A stretch of DNA of 60,179 nucleotides from the IMG/VR virus record IMGVR_UViG_3300031857_000191, positions 1-60,179 of that record; one strand, written 5' to 3'. How positions within the stretch are numbered: the first letter of the stretch is position 1; each line of letters opens with the position of its first letter. Both the position numbers and the translations under genes were made by a program. The stretch comes from a virus. Below the pieces are notes generated by a model that was not told where the DNA came from, made no database searches, and was given only the letters and a program-made list of their open reading frames with translations. Positions 6,836-43,934 of the stretch are shown in pieces.

Positions 6836-6864
6836 AAAAAAGAGTAACTATTTCTAGTTACTCT
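6836..6864 (-). terminator. Terminator of the tmRNA gene
   Basis: Minus strand GAGTAACT, short loop, AGTTACTC, then TTTTTT. It begins about 10 bases past the tmRNA 3' end. Confidence 0.85.
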
Positions 6865-6870
6865 CATTTG

Positions 6871-7311
6871 TGGAGATGACGGGAGTCGAACCCGTGTCTT
6901 GTTAAGTATTCATAATACCAACGTTTCACATGCTTAGATCTGATAAATCTGATCAGTAGGGGCAAACCAGTTATGGTCGACTTCCACCACTTGATTTTAT
7001 GACTATCAAGAAAACAATTTGTAAGGCTGGGGCGATGTAGTCATTACTCTGCTTTCACACCCATCACTCCTAAAGAGCTGTCAGTATCAGAGTACCTTAC
7101 TAGCTTGTAACTTCTGTTCCTAGGATGTTACACCCGATGCTAATTAAGCAGCTAATGCGTACTCGTTCGCGCCTACGAATGACATTAAGTCTTCGAAGGT
7201 CATGGTTGACATTTCGTCGTTTATTGGTTTGTAGCTTTCTAAGGCGACACTACCGAACGCCTGCATGTGGTACTATCAATCGCATAGCAATCAAATACCA
7301 AAAACATCCCC
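6871..7311 (-). ncRNA. ssrA: Transfer-messenger RNA (tmRNA)
   Basis: The 5' end GGGGATGTTTTTGG and the 3' end with T-arm GGGTTCGACTCCC and CATCTCCA form the expected tRNA-like acceptor (one G-U pair); CCA is not encoded. A pseudoknot like PK1 can be drawn with GGCG/CGCC and GTAG/CTAC at RNA positions 51-81. The tag frame ends GANEYALAA then TAA (stop at 7144-7146). At the usual distance after PK1 (RNA position about 88) the sequence AAACGACGAA matches the E. coli resume region and is in frame, so the tag may run to about 25 residues. At 441 nt it is longer than most. tmRNA with SmpB frees stalled ribosomes; no smpB is seen here. Confidence 0.9.
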
Positions 7312-7367: not shown

Positions 7368-7520
7368 TTACTTAGCAGAATCAACAGTAGATACAGTTGT
7401 ATCAACAGTCACAGTTGAATCAGTAGATACAGTTGTTGAATCAGTAGCAACTACATCAGTAGAAGCATTACCGCAAGCAGTTAAAGCAGCGATAGCGAAA
7501 ATAGCGATTAATTTTCTCAT
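7368..7520 (-). CDS. Tiny Thr/Ser/Val-rich lipoprotein
   Basis: 50 residues. MRKLIAIFAIAALTACGN is a complete lipoprotein signal (lipobox LTAC). The mature part of about 35 residues is a low-complexity repeat of Thr, Val, Ser and Asp (TDSTTVSTDSTVTVDTTVST). An ATATTTAT motif lies 21 bases above the ATG and a terminator follows the stop, so it is a stand-alone transcription unit. Small lipoproteins of this type in phages sometimes block superinfection, but nothing in the sequence proves that here. Confidence 0.7.
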   Translation of the reverse strand: MRKLIAIFAIAALTACGNASTDVVATDSTTVSTDSTVTVDTTVSTVDSAK

Positions 7521-7540
7521 GTTTGTTTTTTTTGTTTATA

Positions 7541-7548: not shown

Positions 7549-7553
7549 TATTG

Positions 7554-7640
7554 TGCCTCAGGCGAGAATCGAACTCGCACTCGCGTTGCGGCGAACAAGA
7601 TTTTAAGTCTTGCGTGTCTACCTATTTCACCACCAAGGCA
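7554..7640 (-). tRNA. tRNA-Leu (anticodon TAA)
   Basis: Class II tRNA of 87 nt: acceptor TGCCTTG, Leu-type D-arm (GGTAGACAC), anticodon loop CTTAAAA, long variable arm and T-arm GAGTTCGATTCTC. CCA is not encoded. Confidence 0.9.
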
Positions 7641-7660
7641 TTATCTGTTATCTTATAATA

Positions 7661-7918
7661 TTAGAGAATATCATCATTAGATAGATTAATCTCTATTTTA
7701 TTTTTATTTCGTCTCACTTCTTCAGCTTCTTTGTAAAGCCTTATCCAAGTTAAACTAACATCAACTATAGCTAATACAGGTGCTAAAAATAGAACCATAA
7801 TCGCGTCTAATCCTGGTGCTGAGTCTAGTCCACCACCTCTTAAATTAGTTGCATTATAGCGTTTTACTAATTGATAAAAACAATAAATAACACTTACTAC
7901 ATAAATTGTCCAAAACAT
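7661..7918 (-). CDS. Small membrane protein
   Basis: 85 residues with two hydrophobic segments (about 2-18 and 38-57) and a charged C-terminus (EEVRRNKNKIEINLSNDDIL). It is embedded among tRNA genes. No family recognised; two-span membrane protein is all the sequence supports. Confidence 0.55.
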   Translation of the reverse strand: MFWTIYVVSVIYCFYQLVKRYNATNLRGGGLDSAPGLDAIMVLFLAPVLAIVDVSLTWIRLYKEAEEVRRNKNKIEINLSNDDIL

Positions 7919-7987
7919 TTCTTTATTTTTTAATTATATTAAATATAATATCTTTTTTTTGGGTCATCAAATTTATTTAACCCATTG

Positions 7988-8058
7988 TTGCCCCTCAAGG
8001 ATTCGAACCTCAACAAACAGTACCAAAAACTGTCGTACTACCGTTATACTAAAGGGCA
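7988..8058 (-). tRNA. tRNA-Gln (anticodon TTG)
   Basis: 71 nt: acceptor TGCCCTT paired with AGGGGCA, anticodon loop TTTTGGT, T-loop TTCGAAT. Confidence 0.88.
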
Positions 8059-8063
8059 ATAAG

Positions 8064-8137
8064 CTCTCTCTCTTGGACTTGAACCAAGGACCCTCTGATT
8101 AACAGTCAGATGCTCTAACCAACTGAGCTAAGAAAGA
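8064..8137 (-). tRNA. tRNA-Asn (anticodon GTT)
   Basis: 74 nt: acceptor TCTTTCT paired with AGAGAGA, D-arm TAGCTCAGTTGGTTAGAGC, anticodon loop CTGTTAA, T-loop TTCAAGT. Confidence 0.9.
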
Positions 8138-8142
8138 GTATG

Positions 8143-8230
8143 CGGAAGCTCAGGGATTCGAACCCCAGAATCGCTCATCACGATTGCTTGTTTTCAAGAC
8201 AAGTCCGTTCAACCACTCCGGCAAGCTTCC
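8143..8230 (-). tRNA. tRNA-Ser (anticodon TGA)
   Basis: 88 nt class II tRNA: acceptor GGAAGCT paired with AGCTTCC, anticodon loop CTTGAAA, long variable arm, T-loop TTCGAAT. Confidence 0.9.
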
Positions 8231-8234
8231 GTTT

Positions 8235-8307
8235 TGAAGTAGGTCACTGGAAACCTTATAACTGATATATCAGCTTATGGGTTAAGTACTCCTCTTATGC
8301 TACTTCA
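8235..8307 (-). ncRNA. Structured spacer RNA element 1
   Basis: 73 nt between tRNA-Ser and the first abnormal Leu-like tRNA. Closed by a perfect 8-bp helix TGAAGTAG/CTACTTCA, with inner hairpins CTTA/TAAG and CTGATATATCAG and an AGGT/ACCT hairpin next to the 3' strand. It is not a normal tRNA: no T-loop or anticodon arm of standard form. Confidence 0.45.
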
Positions 8308-8322
8308 TCGTACTCCAATTTG

Positions 8323-8423
8323 CAGTCAGGACAGGATTTGAACCTGTACGTCTCTTATTTTACAGTTGATTAATGAGACTACTCAACTAAGGTTAATAGC
8401 GTCTATCATTCCGCCACCTGACT
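8323..8423 (-). tRNA. Abnormal Leu-like tRNA, 101 nt
   Basis: Acceptor AGTCAGG/CCTGACT, Leu-type D-arm (GCGGAATGATAGACGC) and T-arm ACAGGTTCAAATCCTGT are all intact. The 51 nt between D- and T-arms do not fold normally. A 17-nt arm in the right place would give loop CCTTAGT, with C at position 33 and anticodon TTA, and one mismatched stem pair. An alternative is an 8-bp bulged stem with loop CTTA. The variable stem GTCTC/GAGAC then holds a 20-nt loop. It may be a decayed tRNA, one with an insertion, or a different RNA built on tRNA ends. Confidence 0.55.
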
Positions 8424-8424
8424 A

Positions 8425-8539
8425 TGTGAAGAGCTTTACAATTAAGTTGGTACTCTTCGTGATAGGGATGCTATCTTCGCCCTAAACCATCATTCGTGAG
8501 GTCTGTGTCCTCCAACGATACTCATCAGTTCTCTTCACA
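8425..8539 (-). ncRNA. Structured spacer RNA element 2
   Basis: 115 nt between the two abnormal Leu-like genes, closed by a perfect 9-bp helix TGTGAAGAG/CTCTTCACA starting one base from the 5' end of the first of them. Inside are GAGG/CCTC and two mutually exclusive stems, TAGGG/CCCTA and GATAG/CTATC. Confidence 0.45.
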
Positions 8540-8557
8540 GCAATAGATGAGAGGCTG

Positions 8558-8700
8558 TAGTCAGGACAGGATTTGAACCTGTAATACTTGCACATGCTAT
8601 GCCCAAGGCTTCTAATCGTGATAGCGACTCATTAAACTACAAGCATGTATATGTCTAATATCTACTAAAACTAAGCGTCTACCAATTCCGCCACCTGACT
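8558..8700 (-). tRNA. Abnormal Leu-like tRNA with long insertion, 143 nt
   Basis: Acceptor AGTCAGG/CCTGACT and T-arm ACAGGTTCAAATCCTGT are identical to those of the gene at 8323-8423, and the D-arm GCGGAATTGGTAGACGC is a standard Leu type. The interior is 93 nt instead of about 34 and is unrelated to that of its sister. It contains a 6-bp helix ACATGC/GCATGT and a GCCTTGGGC hairpin, but I could not draw any canonical anticodon arm. An intron, a decayed gene or a repurposed tRNA shell are all possible. Confidence 0.5.
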
Positions 8701-8704
8701 ATAT

Positions 8705-8801
8705 GGATGAGGTTTAGTTGGCCGACTAAACAATGTTACTATTAGCTGCACCACGAGTTACACGTGGCTGACGGGTGCTCCGCTTTCATATACTCTCATC
8801 C
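8705..8801 (-). ncRNA. Structured spacer RNA element 3
   Basis: 97 nt between the second Leu-like gene and tRNA-Thr, closed by GGATGAG/CTCATCC. It contains a 7-bp hairpin GTTTAGT/ACTAAAC directly against the 3' closing strand, where a T-arm would sit, and a CCACG/CGTGG hairpin with a 7-nt loop. The loop lacks U33, so it is not a normal anticodon. Confidence 0.45.
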
Positions 8802-8804
8802 TTG

Positions 8805-8877
8805 ATCCAGAAACAAGAATCGAACTTGCGACCTACTGATTACAAATCAGTTGCTCTACCTGCTGAGCTATTCTGGA
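8805..8877 (-). tRNA. tRNA-Thr (anticodon TGT)
   Basis: 73 nt: acceptor TCCAGAA paired with TTCTGGA, D-arm TAGCTCAGCAGGTAGAGCA, anticodon loop TTTGTAA, T-loop TTCGATT. Confidence 0.9.
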
Positions 8878-8880
8878 ATA

Positions 8881-8971
8881 TAGTAAAGAATCTGACTCGT
8901 GAAACACCAGATAGTACTTAATTTTGTTTTCTCACATTTTAAGTGGTCACCTATGGATGTAGTCTTTACTA
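8881..8971 (-). ncRNA. Structured spacer RNA element 4
   Basis: 91 nt starting three bases above tRNA-Thr, closed by a perfect 9-bp helix TAGTAAAGA/TCTTTACTA, with an ATCTG/CAGAT hairpin just inside the 3' strand. Confidence 0.42.
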
Positions 8972-8983
8972 ATTTATTTTAGG

Positions 8984-9073
8984 AAAGTAGAAGATGGGTG
9001 CGTGGACATCTACTTTTACGATTGGCGTTACTTTGGTTTATACCTCCTCACCTTTTTTAAGGGATTCCCAATC
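8984..9073 (-). ncRNA. Structured spacer RNA element 5
   Basis: Two adjacent helices fill the spacer next to tRNA-Glu: a long-range GATTGG/CCAATC pair and a strong hairpin AAAGTAGATG/CATC..CTACTTT with a small bulge. No T-run follows, so it is not an obvious terminator. Confidence 0.35.
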
Positions 9074-9083
9074 AACCTATTTG

Positions 9084-9155
9084 TACTCTCAACGAGAATC
9101 GAACTCGTATTACCAGGATGAAAACCTGAGGTCCTAACCGTTAGACGATGAGAGC
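9084..9155 (-). tRNA. tRNA-Glu (anticodon TTC)
   Basis: 72 nt: acceptor GCTCTCA paired with TGAGAGT, anticodon loop TTTTCAT, T-loop TTCGATT. It is the tRNA closest to groEL. Confidence 0.9.
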
Positions 9156-9174: not shown

Positions 9175-10842
9175 TTAGAATCCTAATCCTGGATTGCCAA
9201 ATTCATCTTCTTTCTTATCTTTAGTTGGTTCCTCATAAATAACTGTTTCAGTTGTTAATATAGTACCAGCTACAGCAGCTGCATTTTCAATTGCTAAACG
9301 AGTTACTTTAGTTGGATCTAAAATACCAGCATCAAGCATATTAACAAATGTTTCTGTTTTTAAATCAAATCCTTTCCATGTATTATCATATATCTCAGTA
9401 TTTGGATCTAATGATATTCTATCTAATTCATACATATAATACTCTGGATTTTGATAACCGGCGTTAATTAATATCTGAGTAAATGGAGATGATAGAGCAT
9501 TGAAAACAATTTTTTTACCTGTTTTAAAATCATTGCTTTCATCTTTACTAAATGTAATAGCATTTCTAGCATACAATAAAGCAGCGCCTCCACCTGGTAA
9601 TATACCTTCTTCATTAGCAGCACGAGTAGCGAATAAAGCATCTTCAACTCTATCCTTATACTCTTTCATATCAATTTCATTCACACCGCCAACATTAATA
9701 ATAGCTACACCACCAATTAATTTACCTAATCTTTCTTGTAATTTTTCTTTTTCAAAGAATGATTGTGCTTTATCAATTTGATCTTTAATCTCATTAGCTC
9801 TTATATCAATATCAGCCTCAGATCCTTTACCATCAATAACTGTTGTTTTATCTTTAGTTATTGTCACTGTTCTAGCTTGACCCAAGTAAGATGATAATTG
9901 AGATGGTTGTATTTTATCTAATTTTAATCCTTTTTCTTTAGATATCACTTGACCACCTGTCACAATAGCTAAATCTTCTAAAATTAGAGTTTTACGCTCA
10001 CCAAAGTCAGGAGCTTTAACAGCTACTACTTTAACAATACCTCTCATTTTATTAACAATAAGTGTCGCTAATGCTTCACCATCAATATCTTCAGCTACAA
10101 TCAATAATGATTTATTCTCACTATTTACTTTTTGTAACACATTTAATAATTCAGCGGCAGCAGTGATACGACCATCATAAATTAATACAAATGGATCTTC
10201 AAGTACAGCTTGCATTGTATTATTGTTAGTCACAAAGTAAGGTGATTTATAACCTCTATCAAACTGAATACCTTCAACTACTTCAAGTGTTGTTTCACCT
10301 GTTTTACTTTCTTCAATAGCAACAACTCCATCACGACCTACTTTTTCAATAGCAGTGGCAATTAAATTACCTGTTGACTCATCATTATTAGCTGAGATAG
10401 TAGCTACTTGTTTTAGTTGTTCTTCAGATGAAATATCTTTACTATTTTCTTTTAATGCTGTTACTACTTGTTTAACAGCAGCATCAATACCTTTTTTAAT
10501 TTCAACCGCGTTAGCACCTTCACCTACTTTATTTAAACCTTCTTTAATTAAAGCATAAGCTAACAATGTAGTAGTGGTTGTACCATCACCTGCTGTATTA
10601 GCAGCTTTAATAGCTGATTGTTTAATTACTTCAGCACCAATATTTTCAATTGGATCTTTTAAAGTGATTGATTTTGCTACTGTTACTCCGTCTTTAGTAG
10701 ACACAGGTAACTCATTTTGTTTTTCGATAATAACATTACGACCAAATGGACCTAATGTTGACACAACTGCTTTAGATAACTTTTTAGCACCTTCAGCTAA
10801 TTTCTGTCTCGCGTCGTTATTATATTCAATTATTTTACTCAT
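9175..10842 (-). CDS. groEL: Chaperonin GroEL (Hsp60)
   Basis: 555 residues, normal length for the family. The N-terminal equatorial domain has STLGPFGRNVIIEK, the nucleotide motif AGDGTTTTTLLAYAL and the catalytic Asp region; the apical domain (about 190-375) contains RGYKSPYFVTNN and KAPDFGERK; the C-terminal equatorial part has EEGILPGGGAALL. The usual Gly-Gly-Met tail is replaced by EFGNPGLGF. Its start overlaps the groES stop by eight bases, so both are translated from one transcript with Hsp20 upstream. Known role: ATP-driven folding of trapped proteins in the cytoplasm. A phage copy may fold late virion proteins or resist host limitation (inference). Confidence 0.97.
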   Translation of the reverse strand: MSKIIEYNNDARQKLAEGAKKLSKAVVSTLGPFGRNVIIEKQNELPVSTKDGVTVAKSITLKDPIENIGAEVIKQSAIKAANTAGDGTTTTTLLAYALIKEGLNKVGEGANAVEIKKGIDAAVKQVVTALKENSKDISSEEQLKQVATISANNDESTGNLIATAIEKVGRDGVVAIEESKTGETTLEVVEGIQFDRGYKSPYFVTNNNTMQAVLEDPFVLIYDGRITAAAELLNVLQKVNSENKSLLIVAEDIDGEALATLIVNKMRGIVKVVAVKAPDFGERKTLILEDLAIVTGGQVISKEKGLKLDKIQPSQLSSYLGQARTVTITKDKTTVIDGKGSEADIDIRANEIKDQIDKAQSFFEKEKLQERLGKLIGGVAIINVGGVNEIDMKEYKDRVEDALFATRAANEEGILPGGGAALLYARNAITFSKDESNDFKTGKKIVFNALSSPFTQILINAGYQNPEYYMYELDRISLDPNTEIYDNTWKGFDLKTETFVNMLDAGILDPTKVTRLAIENAAAVAGTILTTETVIYEEPTKDKKEDEFGNPGLGF

Positions 10843-11125
10843 AAATTGCTAATATTTCTGATTCTTTAGTTATGTAATAATCTTCACCATCAACACTAAT
10901 TTTAGAAGAACCCAGTTTAGGTACTAATACTTTTTGTCCAGGTGTTAATTTTGTTCTATAATACTCTCCTGTATGCCAATTGTAAGTATCACTTACATTA
11001 ACTACTTCCCCTATTTCAGGACGTTCTTTACCCATGTCTGGAATGACAATATTTCCATATGTTTGTTCTTGTTCCTCAATAGGTTTAAGGATAACATGAC
11101 CATTTAATGGTGTTAATTTACTCAT
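10835..11125 (-). CDS. groES: Co-chaperonin GroES-like
   Basis: 96 residues. The Hsp10 beta-barrel core is visible: LNGHVILKPIEE, a mobile loop region EQTYGNIVIPDMGKERPEIGEVV, GQKVLVPKLGSSKI and ITKESEILAIYE. Some roof-loop residues differ from bacterial GroES. Gene order (groES then groEL, overlapping) is that of the bacterial operon. It should cap the GroEL cavity; pairing with the phage GroEL is likely given the overlap. Confidence 0.93.
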   Translation of the reverse strand: MSKLTPLNGHVILKPIEEQEQTYGNIVIPDMGKERPEIGEVVNVSDTYNWHTGEYYRTKLTPGQKVLVPKLGSSKISVDGEDYYITKESEILAIYE

Positions 11126-11384: not shown

Positions 11385-11822
11385 TTATCCTTTTAGGATT
11401 TTTTTGTTGTTTACTTTAATCTCGATTTTCCTAGGTGCTTTTTCAGCTGCATAAGGAATATCAAGTACTAGTAAACCTTTATCTAAAGTTGCTTGTAATT
11501 TAGATAATTCAAATTTTGATGCTACCTTCCATGCTAAATCAAATGAACGTTTAGCAATACCTTTTTGTAGGTAAGATTTGATTTCTTCTGTTTCTGGTTT
11601 GTTATAAGAGATACGTAATGTTTCTCCATCTACTTGAATGTCTAGATCAGATTCAGATAAACCTACTACTGCTAGTTCAAAGCGTAACCCATCTTCTGTT
11701 TCTAAAATATCAACTGGATAGTTGATTTTGTTTTCAAATGTGTTAAATGTGCTGTTTGCGTCGAAAAAATTTTTCCAGACGATGTCAAATGGGTCAATAC
11801 CCCAATGTGCGATTCTTGTCAT
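11385..11822 (-). CDS. Small heat-shock protein Hsp20 (alpha-crystallin family)
   Basis: 145 residues. The alpha-crystallin domain spans about 35-140: YPVDILETEDGLRFELAVVG, SDLDIQVDGETLRISYNK, the dimer-loop region, AKRSFDLAWKVA and LDKGLLVLDIPYA. The end KIEIKV matches the IxI-type anchor that joins subunits. Known role: ATP-independent holding of unfolding proteins before GroEL acts. It is the first gene of a chaperone transcript. The gene is flanked by an inverted repeat, and an ATATTTAT motif lies 83 bases above the ATG. Confidence 0.93.
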   Translation of the reverse strand: MTRIAHWGIDPFDIVWKNFFDANSTFNTFENKINYPVDILETEDGLRFELAVVGLSESDLDIQVDGETLRISYNKPETEEIKSYLQKGIAKRSFDLAWKVASKFELSKLQATLDKGLLVLDIPYAAEKAPRKIEIKVNNKKILKG

Positions 11823-40079: not shown

Positions 40080-43000
40080 TTAAATACATGTTCCATCACC
40101 AGCTGTTAATACTGGGTTTACAGATCCGTTTATTACAACATTAGAGAATGTCATGCTATTAAATCCAGTTAATGTGTTATTACAATATACATTATAGTCA
40201 CTATCAACTAAAGATATATTTTGTCCTGATATAGTAGAACTATATACTACTACTATATCATATGTTCCTATTTGATTTGTATCAACAGTTGCACCATTGC
40301 CTGGGACGTTTGGATCTACTCCTGTAACATTTGTCACTCCAACACCATTCACTGTTATACTAGATAAGTATATTTCTACATCTAATGATATATTAGTTGC
40401 TATTTGTATTGTAACTGTTGAAGCTGCTGGTGATGAGCTAGGACATGGTGTAGGATCAGGTGTAACACTAGGTGTAACACTAGGTGTAACACTAGGTGTT
40501 CTAGTTGGTGTTGGGGTGAATGATGGTGTAGGGGATGGATCTTGACTACATGTTGAACCTTGTGTTAATGTTATATATGGACTAGTAAAGAATACTGTAC
40601 CTTCTCTAGCACAAACATATCTTTGGTATCCATTAACTACTGAGCCTTCTCTAAATGTTCCTCCACAATCTATATAGCTAAAGTCATAAGCATTTCTATT
40701 TGAAGTGCCATCATCAGCTGATAATTCATATGTGTAACAAACTATAGGAGGTGTTGTAGTTGGTGTTATACTTGGAGTAATACTTGGTGTAACACTTGGT
40801 GTCACACTAGGTGTAGAGGTACTTGTTGGTGTGATAGACGGAGTCACACTAGCAGTTCTAGTAGGTGTTATACTAGGTGTTGGTGTATTTGAAGGAGTTA
40901 TACTTGGAGTTACACTAGCAGTTCTAGTAGGAGTTATACTTGGAGTAACAGTATTACTTGGAGTAACACTAGGTGTAGCTGTGTTACTTGGAGTAGCTGT
41001 TATACTAGGTGTAGCTGTATTAGTTGGTGTAATACTAGGTGTTCTAGAAATACTAATACTAGGTGTTACACTTGGTGTAGCTGTATTAGTTGGTGTAACA
41101 CTAGGTGTAGCTGTGTTACTTGGTGTTGCAGTAATACTAGGCGTAGCAGTGTTAGTAGGTGTAATACTAGGTGTTCTACTGATGCTAATTGATGGAGTAG
41201 TACTTGGAGTAGATGTGTTAGTAGGTGTAATACTAGGAGTATTAGAAATACTAATTGATGGAGTTATACTTGGTGTAGCAGTAATACTAGGCGTAGCAGT
41301 GTTAGTAGGTGTAATACTAGGTGTTCTAGAAATACTAATACTAGGTGTTACACTTGGTGTAGCTGTATTACTTGGAGTAACAGTGTTACTTGGTGTAACT
41401 GTATTTGATGGAGTAATACTTGGAGTAGCAGTGTTACTTGGAGTAACAGTATTACTTGGTGTAGCTGTTATACTTGGTGTTATACTCGGAGTATTAGATA
41501 TACTAGTTGAAGGTGTTATACTTGGAGTACTACTAATTGAAATACTTGGTGTTACACTAGGTGTAGCTGTATTACTTGGGGTAACAGTATTGCTTGGTGT
41601 AACTGTGTTACTTGGAGTAATGCTAGGAGTATTACTAATTGAAGTACTAGGTGTTATACTTGGAGTACTACTAATAGAAGTACTTGGAGTGATACTTGGA
41701 GTAGCTGTTATACTTGGTGTAACTGTGTTACTTGGAGTGACAGTGTTACTAGGTGTTATGCTTGGAGTATTAGATATACTTGTTGATGGTGTAATACTTG
41801 GAGTACTACTGATAGAAGTACTTGGTGTGATAGAAGGTGTCGCACTAAAGCTAGTACTTGCTGTAACACTAGGAGTAGTACTAATACTAATACTTGGTGT
41901 CGCAGAAGGTGTAGCAGTATTACTTGGTGTAACTGTTACTGTTGGAGTGAAACTAATACTTGGAGTTATACTTGGAGTAACACTAATACTGATACTTGGT
42001 GTTGTACTAGGTGTAGATGTTAAACTTGGTGTTATTGAAGGTGTTGCTGTTATACTAGGAGTAGCAGTTACACTTGGAGTCATAGATACACATACTCCAC
42101 TTCCTACAACAATAGCATCTCCTGTACCATGACTTCCACTAACTATTAAATAATTTCCTGATGCTATACCTGGACCTGTTAAATAGAATGCATCTAATGA
42201 ACTTCCTACTAATGTTTGAATTTCAGCTATAGTCCATTTATCTGTTCCATTTGGTACTTGATATAAAAATTCTCCTATTTCTAGTGGCTGATCAGCATCA
42301 TAAACTAATATTTGTATTGTTGGATTATAACAAGTATTATATGAATTATCAGATATGTAATAGTATTCTCCATCTAATGGATTAGAAGTAGAAGGTGTTA
42401 CTGTTACTGATGGTGTTGCAGATACAGTAATTGAAGGTGTTCCACTAGGTGTAATACTTGGAGTTGTTGTAGCTGTTATTGATGGAGTAACAGTATTTGT
42501 TGGTGTTATTGAAGGTGTTAAACTTGGTGTTTCACTAGGTGTGATACTTGGAGTAACTGTATTACTTGGAGTTATAGAAGGAGTAATACTTGGAGTAACA
42601 GTGTTACTTGGTGTTATACTAGGTGTGACTGTAGAAGTTACACTTGGTGTTGGTGTTTCACTAGGTGTAGCAGTAATACTAGGTGTGTTAGATATACTAA
42701 TAGATGGTGTTGTTGAATTTGTTGGAGTAATACTTGGAGTATTACTTATACTAATACTTGGAGTAGCTGTAGTGGTAGGTGTTAATGATGGTGTTCTACT
42801 TACACTTATAGATGGTGTTGTAGAGTTTGTTGGAGTAATACTAGGTGTATTACTAATAGAAATACTTGGGGTAATACTAGGTGTATTACTCATTGTTGGA
42901 GTAGAAGTTACAGTTGGTGTAACACTTATACTTGGTGTTTCACTTGGTGTAGCTGTAATACTTGGAGTAACACTAATAGAAATACTAGGCGTTATACTTG

Positions 43001-43934
43001 GAGTAGTAGATATACTAATAGATGGAGTAATACTAGGTGTGTTACTTATACTAATAGATGGAGTAGCACTAATAGAAATACTAGGAGTAGCAGTTATTGA
43101 AGGTGTGTTACTGATAGAAATACTAGGAGTAGCACTTGGTGTTTTACTAACACTAAATGATGGTGTTAAACTAATAGTAGGAGTTATACTAATAGTAGGT
43201 GTAATAGATGGAGTAATACTTATTGTAGGTGTTACACTTGGTGAAGGCATTTCAGCTATGCTCATATCTATTTCTTCACGAATAGATCCAAAATCCACTA
43301 TTTTTGGTCCAATAGATACTAAATTTGATATTACACGAGTATATTGTAGAGGATCATTTAAATAAATAGATAAACCTGGTATTGTTCTTTCAGCGTTTTG
43401 GATTGATCTTAAATTAGTATCTTTAACTCCAGATTCAATTCTAACGTTGTTATCATATATGTCATTTAATGGTCCTACTAGTTTCCATATAATCTCAACT
43501 ACATTGTAAGAAATAATAGCAACACTATTATTGATTATTCCATCATATGTTGCTCTACTTATCTCAACTATATAAGGAGATACTGATGCTTTTAATTGAG
43601 CAAAGTATCTAGTAAAATATTTTAAAGCGTAATTAGATTCTGTTGGTGGAATATATTCTCCTGTAATTAAAGGAGTATTTAATAAATCACCAAACCTTTG
43701 AGTAAAACCTCCTGATATGACATTATTTTTCAATAAAAAGTCACTACTCATAGGTGTGTCAGATGTCACACGGGTTAGAAGTATTGATGTGGAAGTATGA
43801 TTTTCTCCTGTCCAATAATTATTATTTTTATCTTTATGATAAAAACCAGAATAAGATTCATTAGATGCGGCGGTAACAAAGTTTCCACCTTGATCGTATC
43901 CTCTCTCTATAATATATGATTCTGGTATGAACAT
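40080..43934 (-). CDS. Mucin-like Thr/Ser/Pro-repeat tail protein
   Basis: 1,284 residues. Residues 1-225 form a globular start that probably attaches to the virion. Two long low-complexity blocks (about 230-515 and 615-1075) repeat TPSITPSISISNTPSI with small variations; Thr, Ser, Pro and Ile make up nearly everything. A short domain (about 515-615) separates them, and a Cys-rich domain (VCYTYELSADD, YIDCGGTF) plus a final beta-rich part end the protein. The gene's stop side faces the replication genes; its ATG overlaps the stop of the baseplate gene by one base. Likely a rigid, possibly O-glycosylated fibre (inference). Confidence 0.75.
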   Translation of the reverse strand: MFIPESYIIERGYDQGGNFVTAASNESYSGFYHKDKNNNYWTGENHTSTSILLTRVTSDTPMSSDFLLKNNVISGGFTQRFGDLLNTPLITGEYIPPTESNYALKYFTRYFAQLKASVSPYIVEISRATYDGIINNSVAIISYNVVEIIWKLVGPLNDIYDNNVRIESGVKDTNLRSIQNAERTIPGLSIYLNDPLQYTRVISNLVSIGPKIVDFGSIREEIDMSIAEMPSPSVTPTISITPSITPTISITPTISLTPSFSVSKTPSATPSISISNTPSITATPSISISATPSISISNTPSITPSISISTTPSITPSISISVTPSITATPSETPSISVTPTVTSTPTMSNTPSITPSISISNTPSITPTNSTTPSISVSRTPSLTPTTTATPSISISNTPSITPTNSTTPSISISNTPSITATPSETPTPSVTSTVTPSITPSNTVTPSITPSITPSNTVTPSITPSETPSLTPSITPTNTVTPSITATTTPSITPSGTPSITVSATPSVTVTPSTSNPLDGEYYYISDNSYNTCYNPTIQILVYDADQPLEIGEFLYQVPNGTDKWTIAEIQTLVGSSLDAFYLTGPGIASGNYLIVSGSHGTGDAIVVGSGVCVSMTPSVTATPSITATPSITPSLTSTPSTTPSISISVTPSITPSISFTPTVTVTPSNTATPSATPSISISTTPSVTASTSFSATPSITPSTSISSTPSITPSTSISNTPSITPSNTVTPSNTVTPSITATPSITPSTSISSTPSITPSTSISNTPSITPSNTVTPSNTVTPSNTATPSVTPSISISSTPSITPSTSISNTPSITPSITATPSNTVTPSNTATPSITPSNTVTPSNTVTPSNTATPSVTPSISISRTPSITPTNTATPSITATPSITPSISISNTPSITPTNTSTPSTTPSISISRTPSITPTNTATPSITATPSNTATPSVTPTNTATPSVTPSISISRTPSITPTNTATPSITATPSNTATPSVTPSNTVTPSITPTRTASVTPSITPSNTPTPSITPTRTASVTPSITPTSTSTPSVTPSVTPSITPSITPTTTPPIVCYTYELSADDGTSNRNAYDFSYIDCGGTFREGSVVNGYQRYVCAREGTVFFTSPYITLTQGSTCSQDPSPTPSFTPTPTRTPSVTPSVTPSVTPDPTPCPSSSPAASTVTIQIATNISLDVEIYLSSITVNGVGVTNVTGVDPNVPGNGATVDTNQIGTYDIVVVYSSTISGQNISLVDSDYNVYCNNTLTGFNSMTFSNVVINGSVNPVLTAGDGTCI
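40440..43250 (-). repeat. Codon-level repeat tract inside the mucin-like gene
   Basis: Degenerate repeats encoding TPSITPS-type units, in two blocks separated by a non-repetitive part at about 42080-42390. Repeat copies differ at synonymous and some coding positions, so the tract is not freshly expanded. The same repeats open long plus-strand frames that are artefacts. Confidence 0.85.

Follow-up and report, generated by a model that had tools for sequence, protein, structure and literature searches.

The DNA analysed here is IMG/VR virus record IMGVR_UViG_3300031857_000191, a stretch of 60 kb (the window), which carries a tmRNA gene (ssrA) of 444 nt on the minus strand at 6868..7311, identified by ARAGORN, by Rfam (RF00023) and from the sequence itself. 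ARAGORN and Rfam agree on a complete tmRNA at 6868/6870-7311, and the covariance model, which a preliminary description of the locus had proposed as a check, matched over its full length (1-374) with a score of 61.8 bits against a gathering score of 47 (E 9e-22). The acceptor stem GGGGATG/CATCTCC keeps the alanine identity pair G3-U70, direct reading finds the T-arm GGGTTCGACTCCC in the tRNA-like domain, and the 3' CCA is not encoded, the gene ending in ACAA. Upstream of the tag frame, as in tmRNA generally (RF00023), lies pseudoknot PK1 (7231..7262, minus strand; RNA 50-81), composed of stem 1 AGGCG/CGCCU and stem 2 GUAG/CUAC. Its two helices covary among 11 relatives, with the ten pairs formed in 95.5% of cells as compared with 32-62% in slid controls, and with both-side changes at 6/10 pairs. 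Directly 3' of the gene stands a terminator-like stem-loop (6840..6865, minus strand). The acceptor, T-arm, PK1 and terminator previously described for this tmRNA have thus all been recovered, using ARAGORN, Rfam, covariation and sequence.

A cluster of tRNA genes (Leu, Gln, Asn, Ser, Thr and Glu; 7553..9155, minus strand; ARAGORN) lies upstream of the tmRNA, and beside it on the same strand are genes for GroEL (9175-10842), GroES (10835-11125) and Hsp20 (11385-11822), all assigned by Pfam. These chaperone genes provide a suggestive context for the tRNA-tmRNA cluster, their joint action with the tmRNA being only putative. Between tRNA-Leu and the tmRNA there is also a small ORF (7380-7521) for a lipoprotein-like product with many T, S, V and D residues, followed by its own terminator-like stem at 7360-7337. 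Elsewhere in the window, positions 40080-43934 encode a 1284-aa protein made mostly of TPSITPS-type repeats, adjoining tail genes.

Four candidate resume codons were considered, AAC at RNA 91, GAC at 94, GGC at 139 and GCG at 142. With PK1 ending at RNA 81, the spacer amounts to 12 nt for GAC, in line with the 11-12 nt or so usual in tmRNA, 57 nt for GGC, as had been estimated before, and 60 nt for GCG. The 12-nt single-stranded linker AAACCAAUAAAC (7219..7230, minus strand), conserved in homologues, puts U(-5) and A(-4) before GAC; GCG, in the context GUAGGC-GCG, also has U(-5)A(-4). In E. coli, A86, four bases ahead of the resume codon, is near-essential for resumption and U85 is preferred (PMC2481249). 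Every tmRNA copy of the pattern-derived set described below has A at -4 of GAC, and 18/48 unique sequences of that family have U or C at the same position before the rival Ala codon. A Bacteroidota tmRNA (L284) has a resume context, AATAAACGACGAA, identical to that of the window and a tag DEYNYALAA, so that GAC is the homologous first codon; AAC was rejected in this role because spacing and host contexts favour GAC. Given this spacing, A(-4) and the L284 context, translation is predicted to resume at GAC and the tag is therefore DEMSTMTFEDLMSFVGANEYALAA, 24 residues (7144..7218, minus strand), with the UAA stop at 7146-7144. The frame ends NEYALAA-UAA, a proteolysis signal and a stop codon, and a conserved core STMTFEDLMSFV (7174..7209, minus strand), delimited by invariant residues, codon selection and host comparison, lies between a host-like head (DE) and tail (NEYALAA). 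The preliminary description had relied on an 11-base match to the E. coli resume region, AAACGACGAAA, at about RNA 88, and had proposed a tag of about 25 residues beginning NDEMSTMTF. The match is present and in frame with GANEYALAA, and the long tag holds, but the positions are RNA 91 for AAC and 94 for GAC, and with GAC as first codon the length becomes 24. Its usual tag length of 8-12 residues was too narrow, as the published range is 8 to 35 (PMC8012679).

Two pattern scans of viral contigs returned about 108 copies, and in most of those that it recognised ARAGORN called the long tag unprompted, with resumption at about RNA 89-96. We also assembled a tag-blind set, by collecting records related to the window through its DNA polymerase (PolB), searching them with the tmRNA model and only then reading the tags. 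All of the tmRNAs obtained in this way (29/29) carry tags of 23-35 residues, so that the comparison with related phage ssrA genes suggested earlier upholds the long tag. The tags fall into three sequence classes. Class A variants, including DVELSTMTFEDAMAFVGADYAVAA, AEELSSFTFEDAMSFVGADYAVAA and DNSELSDWTFDDAMAFIGADEYALAA, differ by whole codons at the start and share the motif ST[MFW]TF[ED]DxM[SA]F[VI]GA ahead of the degron; the core residues S, F, M, F and G are invariant among 16 distinct class A tags (tag-blind set plus window), and this core is more constant than the C-terminal residues. Class B (L256, L412 and L414), represented by DNKIARQEEGASIINMAFANVAMAA and its kin, aligns with class A in its tail, where MAF..A..A.AA is kept in register, an agreement equalled by 0 and 1 of 200 shuffles. 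In class C (L407 and L409) the tag, GKNTNGVVSQGDNAQIEANMNTVFSLLRNEVLAAA, reaches 35 residues, the upper limit of the lengths published so far, and follows a resume context of Bacteroidota type, ATTAAATGGC. The C-termini vary across the family (YALAA, YAVAA, EYAYAA, ATFA, LAIA), most ending in AA. Among named phages, the tag had no tblastn match and the gene no close match, and no isolate of the family was found.

Whether the additional codons are translated can be judged from how they evolve. The search pattern fixed the residues of codons 1-8, which a small hairpin around the resume codon may constrain as well, so that clean evidence of translation comes only from the codons that follow. We therefore used the eight codons (24 nt) after MTF, all of which lie upstream of the start of the short tag. 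Across 43 distinct 24-nt family sequences, with a minimum spanning tree standing in for a full phylogenetic model, the synonymous fraction in the predicted frame was 0.543 against 0.225 expected (p about 1e-10), and 57/86 changes fell at third positions. Control frames +1 and +2 gave no signal, with 22% and 10% synonymous changes against 24-25% expected. The tags of homologues, moreover, differ in length by whole codons. On these sequence comparisons, the extra codons evolve as a peptide under selection and are predicted to be translated. The long-tag reading put forward in the preliminary description is accordingly borne out on four counts: codon selection, an A(-4) that is constant at the upstream site only, unprompted ARAGORN calls and the tag-blind set.

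The host is probably a member of the Bacteroidota, since Shine-Dalgarno-like sites precede only 2/40 window genes and the window GroEL matches Bacteroidota (56%, 571 bits) better than Pseudomonadota (51%, 523 bits); this assignment is drawn from composition and similarity. A host tmRNA with the same long spacer had been named as the finding that would speak against a long tag. We looked for such tmRNAs, and ARAGORN gave Bacteroidota tags of 9-10 residues in 49/49 cases, with resumption at RNA 90-103. A scan for the core pattern in 84,980 bacterial and archaeal species, which did not extend to variants such as ELSTMTF, found no tmRNA, and host tmRNAs with the same core were set aside, the pattern having matched 10 bacterial contigs, 0 of them with a tmRNA. 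The host-like tag DEYNYALAA stands behind exactly the resume context found in the window, so that the phage tag resembles a DE...NxYALAA host tag that has gained about 15 codons by insertion. A second, degenerate tmRNA-like sequence (GENNYALAA) was seen at L311:5761-6172 in the Bacteroidota genome G146, which also has a normal tmRNA; it was rejected as a second tmRNA, having no ARAGORN call and a short tag. In Maribacter phage Panino (L448), a phage of Bacteroidota, ARAGORN reported with low confidence a permuted tmRNA with the tag GKVMNVSFAPTVRQFA.

We consider this to be a working, phage-encoded tmRNA in one piece, with a tag extended by the insertion of about 15 codons, and put the probability of this reading at roughly 0.8. 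Its structure, resume context, translation of extra codons (by selection) and family are supported by sequence, whereas charging, use of SmpB, delivery to ClpXP and the role of the motif are our extrapolation. In the scheme that we propose, a tag of Bacteroidota type gained these codons between its head and its tail. During infection the phage tmRNA would be charged with alanine and would enter stalled ribosomes with host SmpB, a likely partner since a search of this phage and its relatives (30 related records, some of them near 180 kb) turned up no SmpB gene, although incomplete records could miss one. Resumption at GAC would then add A-DEMSTMTFEDLMSFVGANEYALAA to the unfinished protein, and the YALAA at its end would direct the tagged protein to the ClpXP of the host, as is known for ssrA tags (PMC9382460). 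The conserved motif may serve as a second contact, with an adaptor, a chaperone or the protease itself, and thereby set the speed or route of disposal; such a contact through the core motif is plausible from its conservation.

Potential partners were sought among the neighbouring genes. Nine relatives carry, as part of a conserved gene block, a ClpP-like gene (in L278 at 9428-9964) that shares the strand of the tmRNA, lies about 3-4 kb upstream of it and encodes what looks like a Ser-His-Asp triad. In PHROG the gene is best matched by a head maturation protease. It is missing from the window and from many records that do have a tmRNA, and it occurs in records in which no tmRNA was detected; as a tmRNA partner it was rejected, there being no clear association apart from proximity. 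A 107-aa gene stands immediately upstream of the tmRNA (within about 15 bp) in L278 (6293-6616) and also in L316, L317, L319 and L324. It was tried as an adaptor in the ClpP-type relatives and discarded, its AlphaFold model being of fair quality and having no PDB match below E 0.1. A distant possible relative of this gene adjoins the ClpP-like gene. Taken together, the GroES, GroEL, Hsp20 and ClpP-like neighbours suggest a proteostasis region, though a link is not proven by proximity.

One alternative places the resume site downstream, at GGC or GCG, so that the tag would be GANEYALAA or ANEYALAA and the preceding 57-60 nt an untranslated spacer. ARAGORN itself calls ANEYALAA for the window copy and short tags for some relatives, U(-5)A(-4) do precede GCG in the window, and the resulting peptides resemble host tags. 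Nevertheless, this would require a spacer of 57-60 nt in place of 12, it is at odds with the frequent U or C at -4 in view of the importance of A86 in E. coli, the supposed spacer evolves as codons in one frame only, and host resume contexts match the upstream site; we regard it as highly improbable. The short ANEYALAA call for the window is an artefact, ARAGORN having probably chosen GCG because U(-5)A(-4) happen to stand before it. Short calls such as ANEYALAA, ADYALAA and ADEYAYAA were made on long-tag tmRNAs in the window, L036, L055, L061, L097, L247, L250, L254 and L410, and it is likely that automated annotations of phage tags are truncated. Hardly more probable is the explanation that the extra sequence is retained for RNA structure, as a resume-codon hairpin comparable to helix m of E. 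coli (PMC1168896), with the peptide incidental. Short hairpins with differing stems (UGAC/GUCA, GUAGA/UCUAC, UGACAA/UUGUCA and UGAAGA/UCUUCA) do recur at the resume codon, but for most sequences their folding energy is no better than that of synonymous recodings, so that RNA structure can account for conservation at the tag start in part at most, and the hairpin stops short of the codons with the clearest synonymous excess.

Where the long tag is accepted, its purpose can be read in several ways. The extension could be a passive flexible handle that eases ClpX engagement and has no partner of its own. The quite different long tags of classes B and C in related phages suit a simple length requirement, as does the long but unrelated tag of Mycobacterium phage ET08; on the other hand, the invariant class A core is tighter than a spacer needs, and the class B tail stays in register with it, so that we entertain a passive handle only tentatively. 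It appears unlikely that the extension diverts proteins to a different protease, after the manner of Mollicutes, whose long tags are read by Lon. The length is similar to that of the longer Mesoplasma tag (PMC9382460), and both the variable C-termini and the ClpP-like gene of nine relatives would fit, but most tags retain a ClpX-type AA terminus in place of NYAFA, and the ClpP-like gene has the distribution and the PHROG match given above. It is also possible, if doubtful at present, that the extension is a phage-specific docking element which redirects trans-translated proteins through an adaptor, chaperone or protease that the host tag does not use. Were docking to prove right, the phage would take charge not only of rescue but also of what becomes of the rescued proteins.

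Tag length alone is not new, since tags of 8-35 residues are known and ARAGORN reports 25 residues for ET08. What is new, by sequence comparison, is a large phage family in which the conserved motif ST[MFW]TF[ED]DxM[SA]F[VI]GA, of only putative role, precedes the degron; a full-text literature search found no mention of this motif. To our knowledge, why phages carry a tmRNA is unsettled. In this family a tag of host type has been lengthened and the added peptide is better conserved than the degron end, which suggests an altered fate of rescued proteins. The family further offers a ready set of natural tag sequences for testing, and it illustrates how automated calling can overlook the greater part of a tag. 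A tmRNA is present in about 2% of phage genomes (PMC9004378).

Among the closest known systems, the Bacteroidota host tmRNA (RF00023; tags such as DEYNYALAA and GENNYALAA) is likewise in one piece with PK1, resumes with the same spacing at RNA 90-103, and has the same kind of head and NxYALAA tail, in L284 behind an identical context; its tags of 9-10 residues, however, lack the insert of the 24-residue phage tag. The tmRNA of Mycobacterium phage ET08 (Bixzunavirus Bxz1) is also phage-encoded, with the ARAGORN tag ATDTDATVTDAEIEAFFAEEAAALV, but belongs to a different host phylum. Its tag has no significant sequence similarity to that of class A (shuffle p 0.08-0.13), and convergence of the two was rejected on these shuffles. 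The Mollicute Mesoplasma florum has an ssrA tag, read by Lon, that is also longer than that of E. coli and has its own recognition properties (PMC9382460); it is cellular, ends in NYAFA and is linked to the loss of ClpXP, whereas the phage tag ends in EYALAA. The tmRNA of phage Melnitz and SAR11 phages likewise belongs to a myovirus and lies near other expression genes, but it is two-piece and of alphaproteobacterial type, and the available part of that report describes no long tag (PMC9004378).
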